Source: an uncultured bacterium (lineage in GTDB: Bacteria > DUMJ01). From it: 64,000 bases of DNA. Numbering within the stretch: position 1 is the stretch's first letter; each line of letters begins with the position of its first letter. Positions 5,830 to 60,939 of the stretch are shown here, in pieces. The notes beneath the pieces are model-generated. The model was given only the letters and a program-made list of their open reading frames with translations, was not told where the DNA came from and did not search any database. The stretch covers positions 1 to 64,000 of the forward strand of contig CALGNK010000017.1 of NCBI GenBank assembly GCA_937958695.1, read 5' to 3'. The translations under genes and the position numbers were made by a program.

Positions 5830-8007
5830 ATGGATCAATTCTACAGTTGGTTATCCTATGTTGTAGTCTTTCTCCTTATGGGAATTACCCCGGGGATATT
5901 CTATTCCCGGGTAATTGACCCATTTGAGCTTCCAAAGTTTCTCTTTGTAAGAATTATCTTAAGTATTTTCTTGATTTTTATTCTATTCTACAGAAAAGGC
6001 TTAAAGATAAAATATTCGAAGATATTTGTATACGTATGGCTTCTAGGGGTATCTATATCTATCTCTACATTGCTATCCGATTATAGAGATGTTAGTTTTT
6101 ATGGTGAGTGGGAGAGGTACTTGGGGCTATCATCTATGTTACCAATAATTCTATCAACTGTATCTCTGCTATTCTTGGATAAAAAGAGATTACCAGTTAT
6201 TAAATATGCATTTGTATTGGGAACGATTCTAATAATTGTTAAAGGTTTTAGACAGATCTTAGGATACGATATGTTTTCTCTAGAGGATCTGGGAGGAAGA
6301 ATTATATCCTCACTTGGCAATGCGGACTTTTTAGGTGAATATGTAGTTATAGTTTTACCTATTATTATGTTAGAGGCGATATACTCAAAGATTAGACTTG
6401 AGAGGATATTATTTTTTATACTCTTTGGTTTTACATTCTATATGCTTCTAGCATCTGGGACAAGGAGCTCTTGGCTTGCATTTCTTCTATTGCTTGTTCT
6501 AATGCCAGTAGTATTCCTAAAACCCAAATCTCCCTATTTTGTATATAAGAAGGTGGTCTTTTATCTTATCTTTACAGGTGGTCTTATCCTGATGTTGCTA
6601 TATCTACCAACAACAAATATTGTAAAGCTGGTATTATTTTTACTCCTTCTATTCTGGCTCTATCTCTATCTAAAATATCTGTCACCATACATAAAAGGAA
6701 TGATTGCTCCATATAAGGGACGTATTATAGCACTTACACTGATTATAGTAATAGTTTATATATCATTTCCGTACGTAGAAATGATAATTCCTCATCAAGG
6801 TGCTATTCTTTCTGATGCTATAAAGACAAGGCTTAGGGCTATGGTAGAACCAGAGGTGGGAAGATTCTATATACTAAAGACATCTTTTAGGTACGTAAGA
6901 GATGAAATGATGAGAAACCCAATTAGATTTCTCTTCGGATGTGGGCTGGATACTACAGGTAAATATCTATCTAGATATAAAGTTATAGAATCTAATAAAA
7001 TGGATCCAATAGACAATGTTATATATGCAGATAGAGCTCACAACGAATATGTAGATATCTTTTTGCAGACAGGATTAGTTGGTTTTCTTATATTCATCCT
7101 GCTATTATTCCATACAATAAAAACAGGGATAGAGATACACAGGAGTAGACATCCTTTTAGGATATTCACAACCGGAATAACACTTGGACTTGTTGGATTT
7201 GCTATAAATGGGTTATTTATATTTGGCGTAGGTGTCATATATCTCTATCTGTTTTTTATGTGTGGAATAATAGGATTGATCGATAGGAAGAGATTAAGGC
7301 TAGAAAAGAAGAACATATACGTTATCCTAGTAATAATAGCACTTTTCTTTTCTATCTACTCGTTATACTCTGGCATAAGGCAGGTAAAGGCTCATTACTT
7401 TCTCCTAGAAGGGATAAATGCCATAAATAGAAACGATTTATTGAATGCTGAAAGATTTATAGATAAATCTATAGAGATCTATCCCATTGGATATGCCCTA
7501 CAGAGGAAGTTAGGGATATACTCTATAAGACTTAGAGATGAGAAAAAGAATGAGATATTTGAAGCCGGTAAGAAGATATTTCCTGATATAATAAGATACG
7601 TAAAATATCCTACAAGTGCATATTACTCTATATCAATGTTTTGTATGGATGGCTATGAACTAGGGCTAGATAAATCACTCCTTGATGAGGCGATAAAGAA
7701 TCTTAAAGTGTGTCTAGACTATGACAGATATTACAAGTTAGCACTAAAGGCATTAGCAAAGATATATCTGGACTATAAAAAGGACCCCAAATTAGCCTAT
7801 GTCTATGCAAAGAGGTTTGTTGATGTAGAGCAGAGAGATATAGAGATGTGGAAGATACTTATGAGGACAGCCAAGATTGTAAAAGACTGGGATGTAGTTT
7901 GGTTCTCTGCAAAGGCTATACACCTGGCAACAGAAGGGAAAGATGAAGAGGCGGAAAGATATTTAAATGAGGCTGAGAGATTTGTTAATCCCTCCAAAAA
8001 CCCTTAG
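5830..8007 (+). CDS. O-antigen ligase/Wzy-like polytopic membrane protein with C-terminal TPR region
   Basis: 725 aa. About the first 520 residues hold a dozen or so hydrophobic helices. A large loop before RAHNEYVDIFLQTGLVGFLIF matches the O-antigen ligase/polymerase (Wzy_C) signature, and SGTRSSWLAF is another family block. The last 200 residues (from VKAHYFLLEGINAINRNDLLNAERFIDKS) are TPR-like helical repeats. Such proteins polymerise or ligate surface glycans or exported polymers; the substrate is unknown. The start abuts the yajC stop with no clear ribosome site, suggesting translational coupling. The 3' end overlaps convergent murT by 23 bp. Confidence 0.82.
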   Translation: MDQFYSWLSYVVVFLLMGITPGIFYSRVIDPFELPKFLFVRIILSIFLIFILFYRKGLKIKYSKIFVYVWLLGVSISISTLLSDYRDVSFYGEWERYLGLSSMLPIILSTVSLLFLDKKRLPVIKYAFVLGTILIIVKGFRQILGYDMFSLEDLGGRIISSLGNADFLGEYVVIVLPIIMLEAIYSKIRLERILFFILFGFTFYMLLASGTRSSWLAFLLLLVLMPVVFLKPKSPYFVYKKVVFYLIFTGGLILMLLYLPTTNIVKLVLFLLLLFWLYLYLKYLSPYIKGMIAPYKGRIIALTLIIVIVYISFPYVEMIIPHQGAILSDAIKTRLRAMVEPEVGRFYILKTSFRYVRDEMMRNPIRFLFGCGLDTTGKYLSRYKVIESNKMDPIDNVIYADRAHNEYVDIFLQTGLVGFLIFILLLFHTIKTGIEIHRSRHPFRIFTTGITLGLVGFAINGLFIFGVGVIYLYLFFMCGIIGLIDRKRLRLEKKNIYVILVIIALFFSIYSLYSGIRQVKAHYFLLEGINAINRNDLLNAERFIDKSIEIYPIGYALQRKLGIYSIRLRDEKKNEIFEAGKKIFPDIIRYVKYPTSAYYSISMFCMDGYELGLDKSLLDEAIKNLKVCLDYDRYYKLALKALAKIYLDYKKDPKLAYVYAKRFVDVEQRDIEMWKILMRTAKIVKDWDVVWFSAKAIHLATEGKDEEAERYLNEAERFVNPSKNP

Positions 8008-9352
8008 TTACTCCAAAAGATTCTAGTTTTTTTCTAAGTTCGAGCATAGCGGTGTAGGTAGGTATCACAAAGATCTCGTCTTTATCTGACCTTGCTATTG
8101 TTAATTCTAGGGCTTTAAGAGAATCCTCTTCTACTAAGAGTTTTTCTGTATCAAAACCACCGTATTTTAATCTAAGAGCCATATCGTAAGCCCTTCTTCC
8201 AGAGACGGTTATAAATCTAGAGCGTTCCATCAACATCTCAAAGTTTACATCCCAAAGCCAAGAGACATCAGTTCCATCCTGTATATTATCGTTTATAATA
8301 AGTAAGACCGAGATGTCTCTTTTATTAGATAGAAGACGTATTATCTCGTTGAAACCAGCTGGATTCTTGGCTAAGAGGATATATACAGTCTTTCCTTTGA
8401 AGTTGAACCTTTCCCCCCTACCGAATACAGTCCTAACATTACTAATATTCTCTAAGCTTTTCTCTATAGATATCCCTATAGAGTAGCAGGATAAGAGGGC
8501 AGAGATGGTATTGTATATATTATAAATACCTGGTAATTTTGTATCTATGTGAAAACTTCTCTCTTTAAAAGATATATCGAAGGAAGAATTATCTAAGTCA
8601 GAGTTGATGTTATATGCAACTATATCAGGCTTTCTCCTCTTAAACCCGCAAGCTGGACATTCAAATATGCCCTGATGCCCCATATATCTTTTATAATAGA
8701 GTAATGTCTCATCACAGAATGGACAGGACTTTATATCAGCAATACCTGAGTATAAATCTTCACTCTCATACTCTAAGCCAAAGTATAATGTATTAACAGG
8801 TATATTGTATGTAACACTAGAAACCAAAGGATCATCAGCATTTATAACAAATGTGATATCAGGATTAGCTTCTGCTATGCTTCTAAATGTCTTTGCTAAC
8901 TTATCGACCTCACCATACCTATCTAATTGATCACGAAAGAGATTAGTAATGACAATTGTATCTGGCTTTACCTCTTTAACCAATAGATTTAGATTTGCCT
9001 CGTCAATCTCAAAGACACCAACAGCATCTGAAAATTTATTGTTAAAAGAGTATCTCTCTATGAGACTAGTACAGACTCCTCTAACAAGGTTTGCCCCTGC
9101 CCTATTATGAACACAATCAATCCCTAATCCATCCAATATGGTAGCTATAACCCTAGCAGTTGTAGTCTTACCATTTGTCCCTGTTACAAATATCTTGAAT
9201 CTTAACTTTTCCCCTAGCTCTTTCAGTATAGGAGGATATATAGATAACGCTAATTTACCAGGATAGCTTGTCCCACCAAATCTGAATATACGAGATGAAA
9301 CTATGGCTAATTTTCCAATTAGAACACTAGTATAAAACCTCGTTGATTTCAT
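7985..9352 (-). CDS. murT: MurT-type Mur ligase (lipid II isoglutaminyl synthase subunit)
   Basis: 455 aa. The ATP loop GTNGKTTT is at 58-65. A four-Cys zinc ribbon (Cys210, 213, 232, 235) is inserted in the central domain, and the C-terminal DUF1727 region has NDNIQDGTDVSWLWD, carrying the Asp that completes the amidotransferase triad in the S. aureus enzyme. MurT with the glutaminase GatD amidates D-Glu of the peptidoglycan stem peptide. No gatD is present next to it or elsewhere in the window, which is unusual. The start overlaps the upstream reductoisomerase-like gene by 4 bp (ATGA). Confidence 0.88.
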   Translation of the reverse strand: MKSTRFYTSVLIGKLAIVSSRIFRFGGTSYPGKLALSIYPPILKELGEKLRFKIFVTGTNGKTTTARVIATILDGLGIDCVHNRAGANLVRGVCTSLIERYSFNNKFSDAVGVFEIDEANLNLLVKEVKPDTIVITNLFRDQLDRYGEVDKLAKTFRSIAEANPDITFVINADDPLVSSVTYNIPVNTLYFGLEYESEDLYSGIADIKSCPFCDETLLYYKRYMGHQGIFECPACGFKRRKPDIVAYNINSDLDNSSFDISFKERSFHIDTKLPGIYNIYNTISALLSCYSIGISIEKSLENISNVRTVFGRGERFNFKGKTVYILLAKNPAGFNEIIRLLSNKRDISVLLIINDNIQDGTDVSWLWDVNFEMLMERSRFITVSGRRAYDMALRLKYGGFDTEKLLVEEDSLKALELTIARSDKDEIFVIPTYTAMLELRKKLESFGVTKGFWRD

Positions 9353-10350
9353 CTCCTTCCTAAGACTTTATAGAGTTTATCCTCCTCCTTGCAGATAGGA
9401 TGAGATAGAGCTATCTTCCAAAGTCTACTGAAAGAGGGGAGCCCTAATAACTGTTCTAAACCCCACTCTCTAGCAAAACGTCCATCCTTAATCTCCTCAA
9501 TTGCAGATTTCATAAGTTCTTTCATGTCTTCTGTGATATAACGCTTACCCCAAGTCATATGTCCATACTGACTTGTGTGCGAGTGTAGACTCAATTGGTT
9601 CCAAAGTCCAAACTGAGCTATTGCATGACCTATCTCTCCTAGCTCTCCAGAAGCATATAATTCTAAGATGGCAACTTCTGGGCTGACCCCTTCTTCTACA
9701 AGAACCTCATAGCAAGCCTGAAGAAGGTATAGCATCGCCCCTGCCCAAGAGTGTTCGCTAAAGAGGTCAACAAGAGTCTCTTCATAGAAGCTCGATTCGA
9801 CTGCACAGCCACCTGGTAAAAATGCACCTATACCCTTTGATATAGCTAGTGCATAATCCCAAGCCTTACCTGAGGCATCTTGTTCTACTCCAACTAGAAC
9901 AGGAAAACCTTTACCTTGCAAGAAGAGATCTCTAACTCCCTTTCCTATCATCCTAGGAGCTACTAAGACTACATCTACATCTTTTGGTAGCGTTATAAAA
10001 CCATAGGTGATATTATAGCCACTGGCAAAATCTAGCACCTTACCCTTGGATAAATGTGGGAGGACGTCATTTTCCATTACCCTTGGAGCAACCTCATCTG
10101 GAATGAGAAGTAGAATAATCTCTGATTCTTCTGCAGTCTCACTAATACTCTTTACAGTAAAACCATCAGAAATAGCCAAGTCCCAGGCTTTGTCTTTTAT
10201 ATTTCCGATAATAACATTTAAACCATTGTCTCTTAAGTTTAGAGCCTGAGACCTTCCCTGGTTTCCATAACCTATAATACCTATAGTCTTATCCTTCAGT
10301 ATATCTAGACTTGCATCCTTATCCATAAATATCCTTGCCATAGTCTTCAC
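9349..10350 (-). CDS. Divergent ketol-acid reductoisomerase homologue
   Basis: 333 aa that align end to end with class I IlvC. The Rossmann GYGNQG is at 27-32, APRMIGKGVR at 131-140, the acidic pair Asp195/Glu199 in DLFSE, a Glu at 230 with Glu236 near it, and SHTSQYG at 257-263. Compared with IlvC, the active-site His of GHGxN is Ser110, the Lys of APKxPG is Arg133, and the Glu of TAEYG is Gln261. These are residues needed for isomerisation, so I infer a different reaction, possibly an NAD(P)-dependent oxidoreductase acting on a ketol- or sugar-acid-like compound. No ilvB, ilvN, ilvD or leu genes are nearby. It is coupled by 4-bp overlaps to murT and to the ADP-ribosylglycohydrolase. Confidence 0.75.
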   Translation of the reverse strand: MKTMARIFMDKDASLDILKDKTIGIIGYGNQGRSQALNLRDNGLNVIIGNIKDKAWDLAISDGFTVKSISETAEESEIILLLIPDEVAPRVMENDVLPHLSKGKVLDFASGYNITYGFITLPKDVDVVLVAPRMIGKGVRDLFLQGKGFPVLVGVEQDASGKAWDYALAISKGIGAFLPGGCAVESSFYEETLVDLFSEHSWAGAMLYLLQACYEVLVEEGVSPEVAILELYASGELGEIGHAIAQFGLWNQLSLHSHTSQYGHMTWGKRYITEDMKELMKSAIEEIKDGRFAREWGLEQLLGLPSFSRLWKIALSHPICKEEDKLYKVLGRR

Positions 10351-11636
10351 CTCTTAAATATTTTATAAACTCTTTCGGCTAATTCGGATATCTTAAATCT
10401 TTCGAACCCTATTACAATACTCTCTACAGTATCATTCAAAGGTCTTATCCATTTCTCGGGAAGGTTCTTACCACCAAGTAAGACTCCCATTATAGAACCA
10501 GCAGTAGCGCCATTACAATCAGTATCGAATCCACACATAACACTTGTAGTTATTGCCTTCTCAAAGTCCCCCTCTGATAGCATAAGTCCAAGAACAACAA
10601 AACAGGCATTATTTATAGTATGAACGGGATGATAATCTCCATACTGATCCATAATTTTAGACCAAACATTCTTCCAATCCTTTTCCTTTCTGCACCAATC
10701 CATAACATTATTGATTGCTTCATAAAGTCTAGAGGTCTTTGGTATCTCTGTAAGTCCTATCTCTATTGCAGACTCAACATTATCTACAACAAATGCAGAA
10801 GAGATTGTAGAAGAAATAAACATCTCGCCATAGATGCCATTTTTAGTGTGGGATAGAACGGCATCCCTATATGCAAATTCCCCTGCCCTCTCAGGATGAC
10901 CAGGATTTACATAGCCGAAGATGTCAGCCCTTATCTGCGCTCCTATCCACTCTCTATAAGGATTCATAAACATAGCGGTCTCAGGGGGCTTTATTCCATT
11001 AACCAGATTCCTATAGGCAATCCTCTCCGCAGTATAGACAAGTAGGTATGGAAGATGTGTAAGCCACTCATTTGCTATATCATTGGTAGTAAATGAATCA
11101 CCATAAGTCTCTAAGATATGTAGACCAAGGATCGTATAATCTATATCATCATCTCTAACCATCCTATCTATGTTTCCGGCTGTCCAACTCTTTACCTGTT
11201 TTATCCTTTTAAATGGTTCTTCATTAGATTCTAGATATGGGAAATAGTAATCTAGCTTCTCTATACCAGCGATATCTAAATACTCTTCTATATCTTTTCT
11301 CTTCCAGCCTTCGACTGGTTTTCCTAAGAGACAACCAGCACATCTACCAAGAATACCACCTAGAATCTTATCTTTTATAGTATCTTCAGATATATGGATA
11401 TCTAATCTTCTTGGTCCATCTGGTCTATATCTTTTTATCCCCTCTAGATCTGAAGGTTCTGTATAGAGAAAATTCTCAGATGGCTTTAGGCTTAAAAGTT
11501 CCTTGTAGAGGTTCAAAATAATGTCTTCTGTAAGGAGATTGGGGTCAAAATTCTTGAAAAAAGAAACATCACAGCCTTCTTCTTCTTTTTCTTTCATTTC
11601 ATCTACAAAAAGCCTTCTCATTTCATTTATATCCAT
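10347..11636 (-). CDS. ADP-ribosylglycohydrolase-family protein
   Basis: 429 aa, longer than DraG/ARH3-type proteins because of an N-terminal extension of about 85 residues. The family core starts at ILGGILGRCAGCLLGKPVEGW. Metal-binding motifs are visible in RDDDIDYTILG and GFDTDCNGATAGSIMGVLLG. Family members remove ADP-ribose from proteins or hydrolyse related N-glycosidic bonds. No ADP-ribosyltransferase is adjacent. Its place between a sugar-isomerase-like protein and the reductoisomerase homologue suggests a metabolic (ribosyl compound) role rather than protein de-modification; this is inference. Confidence 0.82.
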   Translation of the reverse strand: MDINEMRRLFVDEMKEKEEEGCDVSFFKNFDPNLLTEDIILNLYKELLSLKPSENFLYTEPSDLEGIKRYRPDGPRRLDIHISEDTIKDKILGGILGRCAGCLLGKPVEGWKRKDIEEYLDIAGIEKLDYYFPYLESNEEPFKRIKQVKSWTAGNIDRMVRDDDIDYTILGLHILETYGDSFTTNDIANEWLTHLPYLLVYTAERIAYRNLVNGIKPPETAMFMNPYREWIGAQIRADIFGYVNPGHPERAGEFAYRDAVLSHTKNGIYGEMFISSTISSAFVVDNVESAIEIGLTEIPKTSRLYEAINNVMDWCRKEKDWKNVWSKIMDQYGDYHPVHTINNACFVVLGLMLSEGDFEKAITTSVMCGFDTDCNGATAGSIMGVLLGGKNLPEKWIRPLNDTVESIVIGFERFKISELAERVYKIFKR

Positions 11637-11646
11637 AATTAACCCC

Positions 11647-12432
11647 TTACATCAAGGATTTTAAAAACTTAGCTGTCTTTGGAAGCAGTTCATCTGGGTC
11701 ACCCGGAATCCCACATTCTAATGTCATATAACCAGAGTATCCTTTCTCTTTTAAAACCTTAAAGGAGCTTGCAAAATCTGTATGTCCCATACCTGGAAGG
11801 AGCCTATTACTATCAGCTAGATGAATATGGGCTATAAGATCAATATTATTAGAGAGAGATTGAGGGATATTAGCCTCTTCTATATTCATGTGGAAAAAGT
11901 CCGCCATTATCTTTAATCCTTTTCTATGAGTAGCATTTAATATCTCCTTAGCATCGTTTAGAGTTTTTACAAAATGGGTTTCATATCTATTTAAAGGCTC
12001 TAATAAAATATATGTACCTTGAGAATATGCATATTCACCTAGTTCATTTAAGAGCTCAACGAGTAGTTTCTTTTCTAGCTCTAATACGTTCATAATAGGG
12101 GTAAGATCAGGCAGTTTAGGTGGACCAAAGATGGGAACTACAACTAGTCCTACAGCTTGTAAGTCAGCACATAAGGAGAGTAACTCTTTTATATCTCTAA
12201 TAGCCTTACCTCTTTCATCTTTATCGGGGTCAAGTAAACATCCACCATAACCAGAACAGATTGTGCTTACCTTTAAATCTCTACCCTTAAGTGCTATTTT
12301 CACCTCATCAATTCGCTCTTTCAAATTATTTCCCCAAAGCTCTATACCTTCAAATCCGAAGGATTCTAACTTTTCTACCTTTTCTTTAAGGTTAGAACCT
12401 TTAACCAGGTTCTCTTGACAGGAAAGCTTCAT
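11647..12432 (-). CDS. Sugar phosphate isomerase/epimerase-like TIM-barrel protein
   Basis: 261 aa of the AP endonuclease 2/xylose isomerase-like TIM-barrel family. It has the expected metal ligands in order: Glu in LLEPLNRYE, Asp in IMADFFHMN, His in HIHLADSNR and Glu in MTLECGI, with the GMGHTDF loop. It probably isomerises or epimerises a ketose, hydroxypyruvate-like compound or inositol derivative. The ADP-ribosylglycohydrolase gene starts 10 bp downstream. It may be part of a small pathway with that protein and the IlvC homologue. Confidence 0.82.
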   Translation of the reverse strand: MKLSCQENLVKGSNLKEKVEKLESFGFEGIELWGNNLKERIDEVKIALKGRDLKVSTICSGYGGCLLDPDKDERGKAIRDIKELLSLCADLQAVGLVVVPIFGPPKLPDLTPIMNVLELEKKLLVELLNELGEYAYSQGTYILLEPLNRYETHFVKTLNDAKEILNATHRKGLKIMADFFHMNIEEANIPQSLSNNIDLIAHIHLADSNRLLPGMGHTDFASSFKVLKEKGYSGYMTLECGIPGDPDELLPKTAKFLKSLM

Positions 12433-12457: not shown

Positions 12458-13816
12458 TTAGTTTCTATAACTAGTAAGAGGAGGAGGTATCCTTCCTCCA
12501 CGTTTAAAGATATCTATACATGGTGTACTATTAACACTTATAATAGGTGCCCTACCTAAAAGACCTCCAAGTTCTACCCATTCCCCAGGTTTTCCTCCAG
12601 GGACAGGGAGTATTCTTACCGCTGTGGTCTTATTATGCATAACACCTATAGCCATCTCGTCAAGTATAATTCCCATAAGTGTATATGGAGAGATATCTCC
12701 AGGTATTGGAATCATATCAAGCCCAACAGAACACACATTTGTAAGTGACTCTAATTTCTCTAAAGTAAGGACACCCTTGCCAACCGCTTCAGCTATCCCC
12801 TTATCTTCGCTTACAGGAACAAATGTTCCACTCAAGCCTCCAACAGATGAAGAAGCCATTAAGCATCCCTTCTTTAGCGCATCGTTTAGAAGAAATAAAA
12901 GCCCGGTAGTACCTGGAGCCCCAAAGGTTTCGACGCCTATCCTTTCTATAATCCTGGCTACACTGTCTCCTTCTTCAGGAGTCGGAGCAAGCGAGATATC
13001 TACACTTACAGAATTTATTCCTAGTCTACTTGCAATCTCCTTACCTATAAATTCACCAGATCTTGTTATCTTAAACGAAACCCTCTTTATCTCTTCTACA
13101 ATAGATAGGATATCAGCGTCTTTTGGAAGTCTCTCTATAGCAGACCTTATAGTTCCAGGACCACTTATGCCAACATTTATAACCCTTTCTCCTCTCTTTA
13201 TACCATGGAAGGCTCCTGCCATAAAAGGATTATCACCTGGAGGATTACAAAGGACGATCAATTTGGCACATACGATAGGTCTAGCCTTTATTCTAGCAGT
13301 TTCTAGTATTACATAACTAGACTCTCTTATGGCATCTAGATTTATACCCGCCTTCGTTGTAGCAGTAACGATAGATGCGCAGAGCCTTTCTGTCTCATTT
13401 AGGATTATAGGAATCGATTTTAAAAAGACTTTATCCGTAGAGGAAACTTCATATTCCAAAAAGCAGGTGTACCCCCCAATAAAATCTAACCCCACATCTA
13501 AGGCAAGTTTATCTAGCTCTTTAGCAAGGTGTATATAATCTTCTACATCTAGACTAGATATGAGTAGAGAAGCAGGTGTTATAGCAATTCTCTTATTCAC
13601 TATAGGTATTCCATACTCTAGTTCTACTCTTTTTATAGTATCCAAAAAGCCTTCTGTAGCATTTAGTAGCTTCTCTCGTAGGCGCTTAATAGTTTCATCT
13701 ACGCTGTCTCTTCTACAGTCTAACAGGTCAACGCCAAGTGTAACAGTTCTTATATCTAGATGCTCTATCTGTATCATCCTAATTGTTTCTAGTATCTCTT
13801 CGGTAGTAAATATCAT
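12458..13816 (-). CDS. UPF0210/DUF711 (PFL-like) family protein
   Basis: 452 aa, the usual length of this family. It begins with TTEEILETIRMIQIEHLDIRTVTLGVDLLDC and has the conserved blocks NPFMAGAFHGI and VSVDISLAPTPEEGDSVARI. The biochemical role is not established; the fold is related to pyruvate formate-lyase-type barrels. It lies 3 bp downstream of the small ACT-domain gene, a pairing seen widely in Clostridia and other bacteria, so the ACT protein is probably its regulatory partner. Long plus-strand frames inside it are shadows. Confidence 0.9.
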   Translation of the reverse strand: MIFTTEEILETIRMIQIEHLDIRTVTLGVDLLDCRRDSVDETIKRLREKLLNATEGFLDTIKRVELEYGIPIVNKRIAITPASLLISSLDVEDYIHLAKELDKLALDVGLDFIGGYTCFLEYEVSSTDKVFLKSIPIILNETERLCASIVTATTKAGINLDAIRESSYVILETARIKARPIVCAKLIVLCNPPGDNPFMAGAFHGIKRGERVINVGISGPGTIRSAIERLPKDADILSIVEEIKRVSFKITRSGEFIGKEIASRLGINSVSVDISLAPTPEEGDSVARIIERIGVETFGAPGTTGLLFLLNDALKKGCLMASSSVGGLSGTFVPVSEDKGIAEAVGKGVLTLEKLESLTNVCSVGLDMIPIPGDISPYTLMGIILDEMAIGVMHNKTTAVRILPVPGGKPGEWVELGGLLGRAPIISVNSTPCIDIFKRGGRIPPPLTSYRN

Positions 13817-59022: not shown

Positions 59023-60939
59023 ATGAAAAGATTGCTAGTATTTTTGCTTGTCTTTAGTTTACTGTCAAGTGTAATGTTTAGTTTCAATTCTATTTCTTTT
59101 GCTCAGAAAAAGTACAGTGAAGCTCCAATGCTGGCAGAATTGGTAAGGCAGGGTAAGCTTCCACCTGTAGAAAAAAGAATTCCTGAGAATCCTTTTATAG
59201 TTGGTCCAGGCGTATTAATAACTAGGACAGATCTTCCCGATTGGAAAGTGGGTAGATATGGAGGAACAATAAGAACTGCTCATTCTGTGGCGGATTGGGC
59301 TCCAGATATATTTGTTATGAACAATGAGCATCTACTTAGTACACCTGGAATTGGTCTTGGAAAGCTTTGGGATCCTCCAACTATTCGTGGCGGTATTAGG
59401 GGAAATATCGTAGAAAGTTTTGATGTTAAAGAGAGTAGAATCTTTACATTCAAGTTAAGAAAGGGGCTAAAATGGTCTGATGGACAACCAGTAACCACTG
59501 AAGACATTAGGTTCACTTATGAAGATGTATTGATGAATGATAAGCTTACCCCTGTTTTCCCCGCCAGGTTTAGAGTTGGTAACAGTTTAAAAGGGGAGCC
59601 AATGAAATTAAACATAGTAGATGAGTATACCTTCCAGCTTATATTTCCTAAACCTTATGGAGCCTTCCTAGAGATTCTTACTGGTATAATAGGTTGGATG
59701 GGATATACTGATCTATTAAAGCCAGCTCATTATCTAAAGCAGTTCCATATAAAGTATACTCCTCTTGAAAAGCTAAAGCCATTATTAGAAAAAGAAGGCT
59801 TCAAAGACGAATGGTGGCAGTTATTTAATCTTAAAGACTTTACCAACTGGGAACAAACTCAGGCAAAAAGCATCGGTTTTCCTGTACTTACCCCTTGGAT
59901 GTTGGTGAAAGCCTCTGGCGGAGTGTATGAGTATGAGAGAAATCCATACTACTTTAAAGTAGATACAGCTGGAAATCAACTACCATATATAGATAGGATT
60001 GTTTCTACCCAAGTCCAAGACGTAGAAATGGTCAATATGAGAGTATTAACTGGAGATATAGATTTCCTAAGGGAAAGTGCTTCTCTAGTAAAGATTCCTC
60101 TCTATAAACAGAATGAAGAAAAGGGCGGATTTAGAACTGTTATATTAGACTTACATAATGATCCAAGTGCTGTATTTATAAATCTTACCTATAAAGATCA
60201 AATATGGCGTAAGATAGTGCAAGATGTAAGATTTAGAAAGGCTATAAGTATGGCTATAAATCGTAAAGAGATTATAGACAGCGTTTACTATGGATTTGCC
60301 TCCTTCTCTGAAACTGTCCCCAGCTCTTATAATGTGAGTGAAGCTAACAAAATCTTAGATCAAGTTGGATTAGATAAAAAGGATTCCGAAGGATTTAGAC
60401 TTAGACCAGATGGAAAAAGATTTGAAATGCTTATTGAATGTGGAGCCCAAGCTCCTGACCTCTTACCTGTAGGGGAACTTATTGTTGAACATCTTAAGGC
60501 TGTTGGTATAAAAGCGACATTGAAGAGAATAGACCCACAGTTATATGGCCAAAGATGGAGTGCTAACGAAATACAGGTTGGTCTTCTCTGGTGTCATGGT
60601 CCTGGAGAGGTCAATAGATACACAACGGGTGCTATACGTGCTCCGGAGTGGACCAGATGGATTAATACTGATGGTAAAGAAGGCGAAGAACCACCCTTAT
60701 GGATAAAAAAGGCGATTGAGATAGATGCAAAGAGATGGCAAAGTATTACCGGTTCTGACGAATATGTAAAACTTTGGAGAGAAGGTATTGCTTGGCATAA
60801 ACAATATTTGCCCCTTATTACCATAGTAGAAAGGGCAAAACAACCCCTTATAGTTTCAGCTAAGATGAGGAATATTCCACGTTCTGGATTTGCTATTGCA
60901 GCTAACTTCTCTGCTGAACAGTTTTTCTATGAAAAGTAA
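59023..60939 (+). CDS. ABC transporter solute-binding protein, family 5
   Basis: 638 aa. The signal peptide covers residues 1-28 (AQKK after cleavage). Conserved parts of SBP family 5 are VESFDVKESRIFTFKLRKGLKWSDGQPVTTEDIRFTYEDVL near the N-terminus and VRFRKAISMAINRKEIIDSVYYG in the middle. These bind peptides, nickel, or oligosaccharides. No permease or ATPase genes are adjacent, which is unusual. A good ribosome site (AAGGAGGT) is upstream. It is followed by a sulfatase-like gene, so a decorated glycan is a possible substrate. Confidence 0.9.
   Translation: MKRLLVFLLVFSLLSSVMFSFNSISFAQKKYSEAPMLAELVRQGKLPPVEKRIPENPFIVGPGVLITRTDLPDWKVGRYGGTIRTAHSVADWAPDIFVMNNEHLLSTPGIGLGKLWDPPTIRGGIRGNIVESFDVKESRIFTFKLRKGLKWSDGQPVTTEDIRFTYEDVLMNDKLTPVFPARFRVGNSLKGEPMKLNIVDEYTFQLIFPKPYGAFLEILTGIIGWMGYTDLLKPAHYLKQFHIKYTPLEKLKPLLEKEGFKDEWWQLFNLKDFTNWEQTQAKSIGFPVLTPWMLVKASGGVYEYERNPYYFKVDTAGNQLPYIDRIVSTQVQDVEMVNMRVLTGDIDFLRESASLVKIPLYKQNEEKGGFRTVILDLHNDPSAVFINLTYKDQIWRKIVQDVRFRKAISMAINRKEIIDSVYYGFASFSETVPSSYNVSEANKILDQVGLDKKDSEGFRLRPDGKRFEMLIECGAQAPDLLPVGELIVEHLKAVGIKATLKRIDPQLYGQRWSANEIQVGLLWCHGPGEVNRYTTGAIRAPEWTRWINTDGKEGEEPPLWIKKAIEIDAKRWQSITGSDEYVKLWREGIAWHKQYLPLITIVERAKQPLIVSAKMRNIPRSGFAIAANFSAEQFFYEK

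Follow-up and report, generated by a model that had tools for sequence, protein, structure and literature searches.

What does a protein do that keeps the fold of ketol-acid reductoisomerase (KARI), the product of ilvC, and lacks the active-site His and Lys of that enzyme? The question is raised by a gene at positions 9349 to 10350, on the minus strand, of the first 64,000 nucleotides of contig CALGNK010000017.1 (assembly GCA_937958695.1), from an uncultured bacterium of the lineage DUMJ01; this 64,000-nucleotide stretch is called the window below. Its open reading frame (ORF), Pfam matches, alignment, and phylogeny identify the product, 333 amino acids from a GTG start codon, as a member of the KARI family. 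The original prediction, made from the DNA sequence alone, described a reductoisomerase homologue with replaced catalytic residues that might form, with adjoining genes for an ADP-ribosylglycohydrolase and a TIM-barrel isomerase, a pathway for a ribosyl or keto-sugar compound instead of branched-chain amino acid synthesis. The protein belongs to a widespread sister clade of IlvC, labeled KARI2 here. The answer that we favor, and to which we give about an even chance, is that members of this clade are NAD(H)- and Mg2+-dependent acid-sugar reductoisomerases serving sugar-acid catabolism and not amino acid synthesis.

The KARI2 clade

The window KARI2 protein matched both Pfam domains of the family above their cut-offs (KARI_N, 199.7 bits against 20.6; KARI_C, 116.3 bits against 29.1). 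It scored 274.8 with the ilvC model TIGR00465, for which the cut-off is 226.15, and 291.2 with NF004017, for which it is 336. In a full-length alignment with KARIs, Ser110 stands in place of the active-site His and Arg133, followed by Met134, in place of the Lys, while Gln261 occupies the Glu column of the TAEYG motif, as originally read; Asp53 lies in the beta2-alphaB loop. The alignment likewise bore out the retention of the metal-binding acids Asp195, Glu199, and Glu230, to which Glu236 can be added. The substitutions are therefore real, but Gln261 does not represent a lost catalytic Glu, because this column varies among IlvC proteins (E in 41, K in 20, Q in 5, R in 1, and A in 1; n = 68) and the IlvC of the same genome has TAKYG. 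Moreover, such replacements are usual throughout the clade to which the protein belongs, one that already has a solved structure. The signature of that clade (NQG(R), APRM, two residues inserted ahead of the second metal Glu, and TSQ(Y/F)G) is present in full in the window protein.

The solved member is Sso-KARI of Saccharolobus (Sulfolobus) solfataricus, deposited as "putative ketol-acid reductoisomerase 2" (6jcv, 6jcz, 6jd1, and 6jd2). It is 55 to 56% identical to the window protein and has the same Ser, Arg-Met, and Gln residues and the same YASGE insert. Among solved relatives, 6jcv was the best match (E value of 1.2e-111; next best, 1.7e-82), and the predicted structure of the window protein (predicted local distance difference test [pLDDT] of 96.6) had 6jd2 as its top structural match, with a template modeling score of 0.91 and 55% identity. 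Since Sso-KARI belongs in it, the clade is structurally known, though filed as KARI. As judged from sequence, KARI2 is a divergent paralogue of IlvC, a known but probably misfiled clade.

Phylogenetic analysis supported this separation. A scan of the sequence collection with seven KARI2-type proteins matched at least 595 stretches, at least 539 of which encode a relative. The 80 best of these, which come from both Bacteria and Archaea, were retrieved, and adding 6jcv, the window protein, four loci from plasmids, and eleven more from genomes brought the set to 97 KARI2 sequences; they were compared with 68 IlvC sequences (39 from KARI2 genomes, 28 others, and the IlvC of the window's genome). 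In a quick, unrooted IQ-TREE analysis (LG+G4, with Shimodaira-Hasegawa-like approximate likelihood ratio test [SH-aLRT] support and without bootstrap), a single branch with an SH-aLRT value of 100 split the 97 from the 68, so KARI2 does not nest within ordinary IlvC, although intermediates could have been missed because the KARI2 sequences were gathered with a KARI2 query. The residues divide in the same way. Position 133 is Arg in 96 of the 97 KARI2 proteins and Lys in all 68 IlvC proteins, and Ser234 of the two-residue insert is found in every KARI2 protein and in no IlvC protein. Position 110 is less uniform in KARI2 (Ser in 74, His in 23) but is always His in IlvC. Met134 is invariant in KARI2, Gln261 and Asp53 occur in 95 and 96 of the 97, and the metal ligands are kept throughout (Asp195, Glu199, and Glu236 in all; Glu230 in 93/97). 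Class I IlvC thus shares with KARI2 the fold, the NAD(P) domain, the four acidic metal ligands, and Ser257, and differs from it in the invariant His and Lys and in lacking the insert; the window protein is 42% identical to the IlvC of its own genome.

KARI2 has a patchy distribution, as would suit an accessory gene that moves horizontally: at an E value of ≤1e-80 it was found in 2 of 199 genomes from the order of Compostibacillus and in 11 of 242 from the class of the haloarchaea. Among 62 pattern matches in viral contigs, none encodes a relative. On two Sulfitobacter plasmids (L034 and L038), KARI2 lies beside insertion sequence elements; in L038 the match is N-terminally shortened (residues 47 to 332) and flanked by transposase genes. 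Two Haladaptatus plasmids (L035 and L199) have KARI2 near DNA polymerase-type genes, plus a ParA gene in L199; since these copies stand alone, KARI2 is carried on large archaeal plasmids without an adjoining pathway. Literature searches for Sso-KARI by name and for KARI-like or IlvC-like proteins found no paper on the clade among those listed, nor did searches combining KARI with threonate, erythronate, xylonate, apiose, gluconate permease, DUF1537/PdxA2, or Haloferax sugar acids; a search on apionate and oxidoisomerases brought up an unrelated genome paper.

Branched-chain context, sugar-acid neighborhoods, and a proposed reaction

The window gene is not the only ilvC-like gene of its genome (2.09 Mb, 98% complete). 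KARI_N matched contig C6 at 59836 to 60327 (255 bits), the window gene (201.8 bits), and, marginally, contig C1 (27.8 bits). The C6 gene follows those for the large and small subunits of acetolactate synthase (ilvB-ilvN-ilvC, the small subunit being named from sequence), and its product has the ordinary motifs SHGF, APKGPG, and TAKYG; a genuine ilvC is therefore present elsewhere. The same holds widely across the clade, in that another KARI was found in 44 of the 50 KARI2 genomes searched: 39 have an IlvC 49 to 94% identical to that on C6, one has a partial match at 56%, and four (G069, G086, G087, and G103) have a divergent or longer KARI that keeps the His and Lys. Of the six without a second KARI, G064 has an acetolactate synthase above the model cut-off and G073 and G093 have weaker matches, while none was found at an E value of ≤1e-100 in G074, G077, and G082, although for each single genome such an absence is weak evidence because several are draft assemblies. 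Of 96 KARI2 genes, 2 have a gene for the large subunit of acetolactate synthase within 7 kb, compared with 33 of 39 ilvC genes. The separate clade, the genuine IlvC elsewhere, and the rarity of acetolactate synthase neighbors make a role other than branched-chain synthesis likely, as originally suggested, and the function of KARI2 is likely to be new relative to IlvC. On one archaeal contig (L051/L178), KARI2 lies about 4 kb from a canonical IlvC that is accompanied by acetolactate synthase. Another divergent type of IlvC, about 360 to 371 amino acids long and with the motifs APKGSGT and TAQRG, was seen at L201, L203, and L204, and at L201 (in G069) it adjoins acetolactate synthase.

The neighborhoods of some KARI2 relatives, in lineages far from one another, form coherent operons that point to sugar acids. 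In Compostibacillus humi (L096), KARI2 is found with rpiA, a PfkB kinase gene, and genes for a FAH-family protein, an alpha-ketoglutaric semialdehyde dehydrogenase (911.7 bits; cut-off, 770), and a YjhG/YagF xylonate dehydratase (1194.5 bits; cut-off, 808). Another genome of that order (G284) has KARI2 with GntP, Nramp-like, GhrB-like reductase, D-galactonate-type transporter, DHDPS family, and IclR/KdgR-type regulator genes. Two haloarchaeal plasmids (L036 and L037) carry enolase-superfamily dehydratases, enolase, and a sugar ABC transporter near KARI2, with a GarL-like aldolase also in L036. A DUF1537 kinase and PdxA lie near KARI2 in four haloarchaeal loci (L155, L157, L158, and L159), accompanied by GntP and the DHDPS family in L158 and L159, and in an actinobacterium (L117), accompanied there by a LarA-like gene and KdgT. 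The Sulfitobacter locus L034 has GntR, a TRAP transporter, an aldehyde dehydrogenase, and glycerate kinase. Overall, 33 of 96 KARI2 genes have one or more of 15 sugar-acid markers within 7 kb, compared with 1 of 39 ilvC genes and 4 of 36 segments taken at random from such genomes (40 were drawn, and four shorter than 4 kb were dropped). "Putative cyclase" (PF04199) genes occur within the same distance in 8/96, 0/39, and 1/36, respectively. A Pfam tally of 128 same-strand KARI2 neighbors showed no dominant family (133 were listed; five from L034, L035, and L039 were omitted). Keto-sugar or sugar-acid chemistry, as first proposed, thus fits the neighbors in part of the family. Four Acidimicrobiia-type loci (L068, L070, L072, and L081) have a gene of the nucleoside-hydrolase family upstream of KARI2, and in three of them a gene for a zinc alcohol dehydrogenase comes between the two; this hydrolase may parallel the glycohydrolase of the window.

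If KARI2 is an acid-sugar reductoisomerase, how might it work? The protein retains the fold of KARI, its dinucleotide-binding domain, and the site for two Mg2+ ions, and with the metal ligands in place it should be capable of two-metal chemistry on a 2,3-oxygenated acid. The reaction would then be of the KARI type, a redox step at C2 coupled to a metal-assisted 1,2-shift between C2 and C3, and would probably proceed oxidatively, as a catabolic step with NAD+. A different substrate of greater polarity would be in keeping with the fixed change of Lys to Arg-Met and with the two residues inserted beside the second metal ligand. It is probably a polyhydroxylated 2,3-dihydroxy acid, a sugar acid of the threonate, erythronate, pentonate, or apionate kind that is branched or has four or five carbons. 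In reverse on an acid sugar, KARI chemistry would give 2-oxo and then 3-oxo acids, and on a branched acid it would give an apionate-type rearrangement. The D-apionate oxidoisomerase ApnO reportedly catalyzes what is formally the reverse KARI reaction with hydroxymethyl groups; an NCBIfam search of the window protein gave no match named apionate oxidoisomerase. As regards the cofactor, one study identifies the KARI metal ligands and describes acidic residues in the beta2-alphaB loop as marking NADH-preferring KARIs (PMC5940873); by this rule Asp53 suggests that KARI2 uses NAD(H), and the Sso-KARI entry 6jd1 holds NADH according to its title.

Two described systems offer further comparison. In L-threonate catabolism, according to PMC12540250, LtnD and OtnI convert the 2-hydroxy acid to the 2-oxo and then the 3-oxo acid, two steps that sum to the chemistry proposed here. 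LtnD differs in combining NAD_binding_2 with NAD_binding_11 and in lacking the KARI C-domain, whereas a Pfam search of the window protein gave a lone 35-bit NAD_binding_2 match in the N-domain and no NAD_binding_11, so the LtnD architecture is absent. The NCBIfam model for 2-oxo-tetronate isomerase, the OtnI activity, does match the TIM-barrel protein of the window (3.4e-15), below its cut-off. The other system is BurG, a cyclopropanol-forming relative of KARI. It sets a precedent for a separate clade of the family that has taken up a new reaction in genomes with a true ilvC besides (PMC9359912), and it holds NAD+. It differs in its gene setting and is only 33 to 34% identical to the window protein, more distant than Sso-KARI. 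A bolder form of the proposal, which we regard as rather doubtful, is that KARI2 is a widespread and systematically misannotated bacterial and archaeal family for one-step oxidation and rearrangement of sugar acids, from 2-hydroxy to 3-oxo acid or from branched to rearranged acid. It would then be a single-enzyme equivalent of LtnD plus OtnI or an independent apionate-type oxidoisomerase, and the whole of this joint claim is offered just as tentatively.

Several observations weigh against a role in sugar-acid catabolism. The markers were chosen from KARI2 loci, which makes the comparison partly circular and the context only suggestive. When the exemplar loci were dropped, markers remained near 12 of 72 KARI2 genes, not clearly above the 4 of 36 random segments (2.77 marker ORFs per 100 kb, compared with 1.38 in random segments), and some of those 12 closely duplicate exemplar loci. 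In many other cases KARI2 is alone or among unrelated genes, as in the one Sulfolobaceae locus seen (L086), and beside the window KARI2 there are no sugar-acid genes except the three of the predicted pathway themselves. Finally, Sso-KARI, of the same clade, is described by its depositors as a KARI and reportedly acts on acetolactate.

The gene unit of the window

In the window, KARI2 is the fourth gene of an apparent minus-strand unit that reads, 5' to 3', DUF711, TIM barrel, ADP-ribosylglycohydrolase, KARI2, and MurT. Gaps of 25 and 10 bp separate the first three genes and are followed by two 4-bp overlaps. The coordinates agree with the original description of a 4-bp overlap between the IlvC-like and glycohydrolase genes behind a TIM-barrel gene; the gene group stated there comprised these three and missed both the MurT overlap and the DUF711 gene upstream. 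The unit is opened by DUF711 (12458 to 13816; 452 amino acids), found by domain search and in the same position in a second genome of the genus (locus L039 of G002). It is preceded on the same strand by threonine-type genes that include an aspartate kinase gene (NCBIfam search) and that we take, the others being named from sequence, to be of the thrC-thrB-asd-lysC type. At the other end, a domain search identified a MurT-like Mur ligase (7985 to 9352; 455 amino acids), which lies in the same place in G002 and is absent from the third genus member, G001; it is probably a passenger within the KARI2 transcript. It has no adjoining GatD-type partner, and a 246-amino-acid GATase_3 protein on another contig of the genome (C21) may be its partner.

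The glycohydrolase (10347 to 11636, minus strand; 429 amino acids with about 90 extra N-terminal residues) matched ADP_ribosyl_GH (PF03747) at 172.5 bits (cut-off, 26.2). It keeps Asp-rich motifs at 162 to 164 (DDD) and 371 to 373 (DTD), which we take to be its metal motifs. Its scores are far under the cut-offs of the equivalog models for ADP-ribosyl-[dinitrogen reductase] hydrolase, DraG (TIGR02662; 26.4 against 337.05 bits), and Tri1 (NF041672; 18.9 against 490). It has no close relative among solved structures (best match, 1.9e-05), and the structure model, from a two-sequence alignment, is of low confidence (pLDDT, 45.4). The genome has two more ADP-ribosylglycohydrolases; a 644-amino-acid paralogue with a long C-terminal extension, on contig C37 (L132, 5761 to 7695), lies near a gene resembling an oligopeptide/sugar-type solute-binding protein. 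The TIM barrel (11647 to 12432, minus strand; 261 amino acids), of the AP_endonuc_2/xylose-isomerase-like type, scored above the domain cut-off for AP_endonuc_2 (142 bits). Its nearest solved relative, 6wn6, is annotated as 3-keto-D-glucoside 4-epimerase, and it stayed below the NCBIfam cut-offs for IolO, its best model (161.5 against 300), Hyi (74.6 against 353.45), and OxoTetrIsom (56.5 against 325). This lineage is rich in sugar-isomerase-type enzymes, with 24 AP_endonuc_2 proteins in the window's genome and 24 and 25 in the other two of the genus. It is a matter of speculation that these two proteins act in a KARI2 pathway, in which the glycohydrolase might split a glycoside to free its sugar or sugar acid, with isomerization or epimerization of the keto compound by the TIM barrel.

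Conservation of the set is narrow. Among 96 KARI2 loci, the three genes occur together only in the window's genome and in G002, where the order is the same and the DNA is 83% identical; these two are also the only loci with an ADP-ribosylglycohydrolase within 7 kb of KARI2. KARI2 is missing from G001 (97% complete), whose closest glycohydrolase and TIM-barrel relatives sit apart, the former among other genes and the latter adjoining zinc alcohol dehydrogenase-like and LacI-like genes (names read from sequence). We therefore reject a three-gene system conserved beyond the genus, and a conserved pathway made up of the three genes is not supported. Among the papers searched, none joins ketol-acid reductoisomerase and ADP-ribosylglycohydrolase.

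Alternative explanations and implications

Could KARI2 simply be a second, NADH-tolerant branched-chain KARI, used under other conditions, in which the active-site changes are tolerated? The shared fold and two-metal site would allow it, the TIGR00465 score is above the ilvC cut-off, and the titles of the Sso-KARI entries name a KARI that holds Mg2+, NAD(P)H, and one more ligand. Yet acetolactate synthase is rarely a neighbor, another KARI is already present in most of the genomes searched, G074, G077, and G082 carry KARI2 with no acetolactate synthase match at the threshold given above, and the change of Lys to Arg is all but fixed; we consider this explanation quite improbable. A plain 2-keto-acid reductase without the isomerase half, acting on hydroxypyruvate, tartronate semialdehyde, or a 2-keto-aldonate in place of a GarR/GhrB-type enzyme, seems a little less so, though still unlikely. 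Glycerate-forming neighbors would suit it (HpcH/GarL-type aldolases at 4 of 96 loci, glycerate kinase in Sulfitobacter, and enolase in two haloarchaea), as would BurG, crystallized with a hydroxypyruvate enol according to its PDB title, and the promiscuity of IlvC proteins as reductases described in PMC4353338. Against it, every metal ligand that serves the alkyl shift is kept, and one KARI2 locus (L148) already has a GhrB-like reductase.

A separate issue is whether the glycohydrolase, TIM barrel, and KARI2 share an operon and not a pathway, their grouping being an accident of the lineage. We see this as a substantial possibility, somewhat short of even. The triad is confined to two of three genus members, the unit also includes MurT and DUF711, which have no obvious link to it, and with 24 AP_endonuc_2 proteins in the genome, finding one near any given gene is not rare. 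The junctions, however, are overlapping or 10 bp long, the order has been kept in G002 despite the divergence of the DNA, and AP_endonuc_2 genes lie within 7 kb of 7 of 96 KARI2 genes, compared with 0 of 39 ilvC genes and 1 of 36 random segments, although these numbers are small.

Because one member already has several solved structures, the proposal that KARI2 is an acid-sugar reductoisomerase is open to immediate test. KARI2 genes are automatically named ilvC, which puts a doubtful branched-chain step into metabolic reconstructions, as in the three genomes without an acetolactate synthase match. If KARI2 acts on sugar acids, it would add a reaction type to the acid-sugar catabolism of archaea and bacteria and would be a second natural case, after BurG, of the KARI fold turned to new chemistry. 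Should the one-step reading be true, the existing Sso-KARI structures would show a sugar-acid enzyme and not a branched-chain one.

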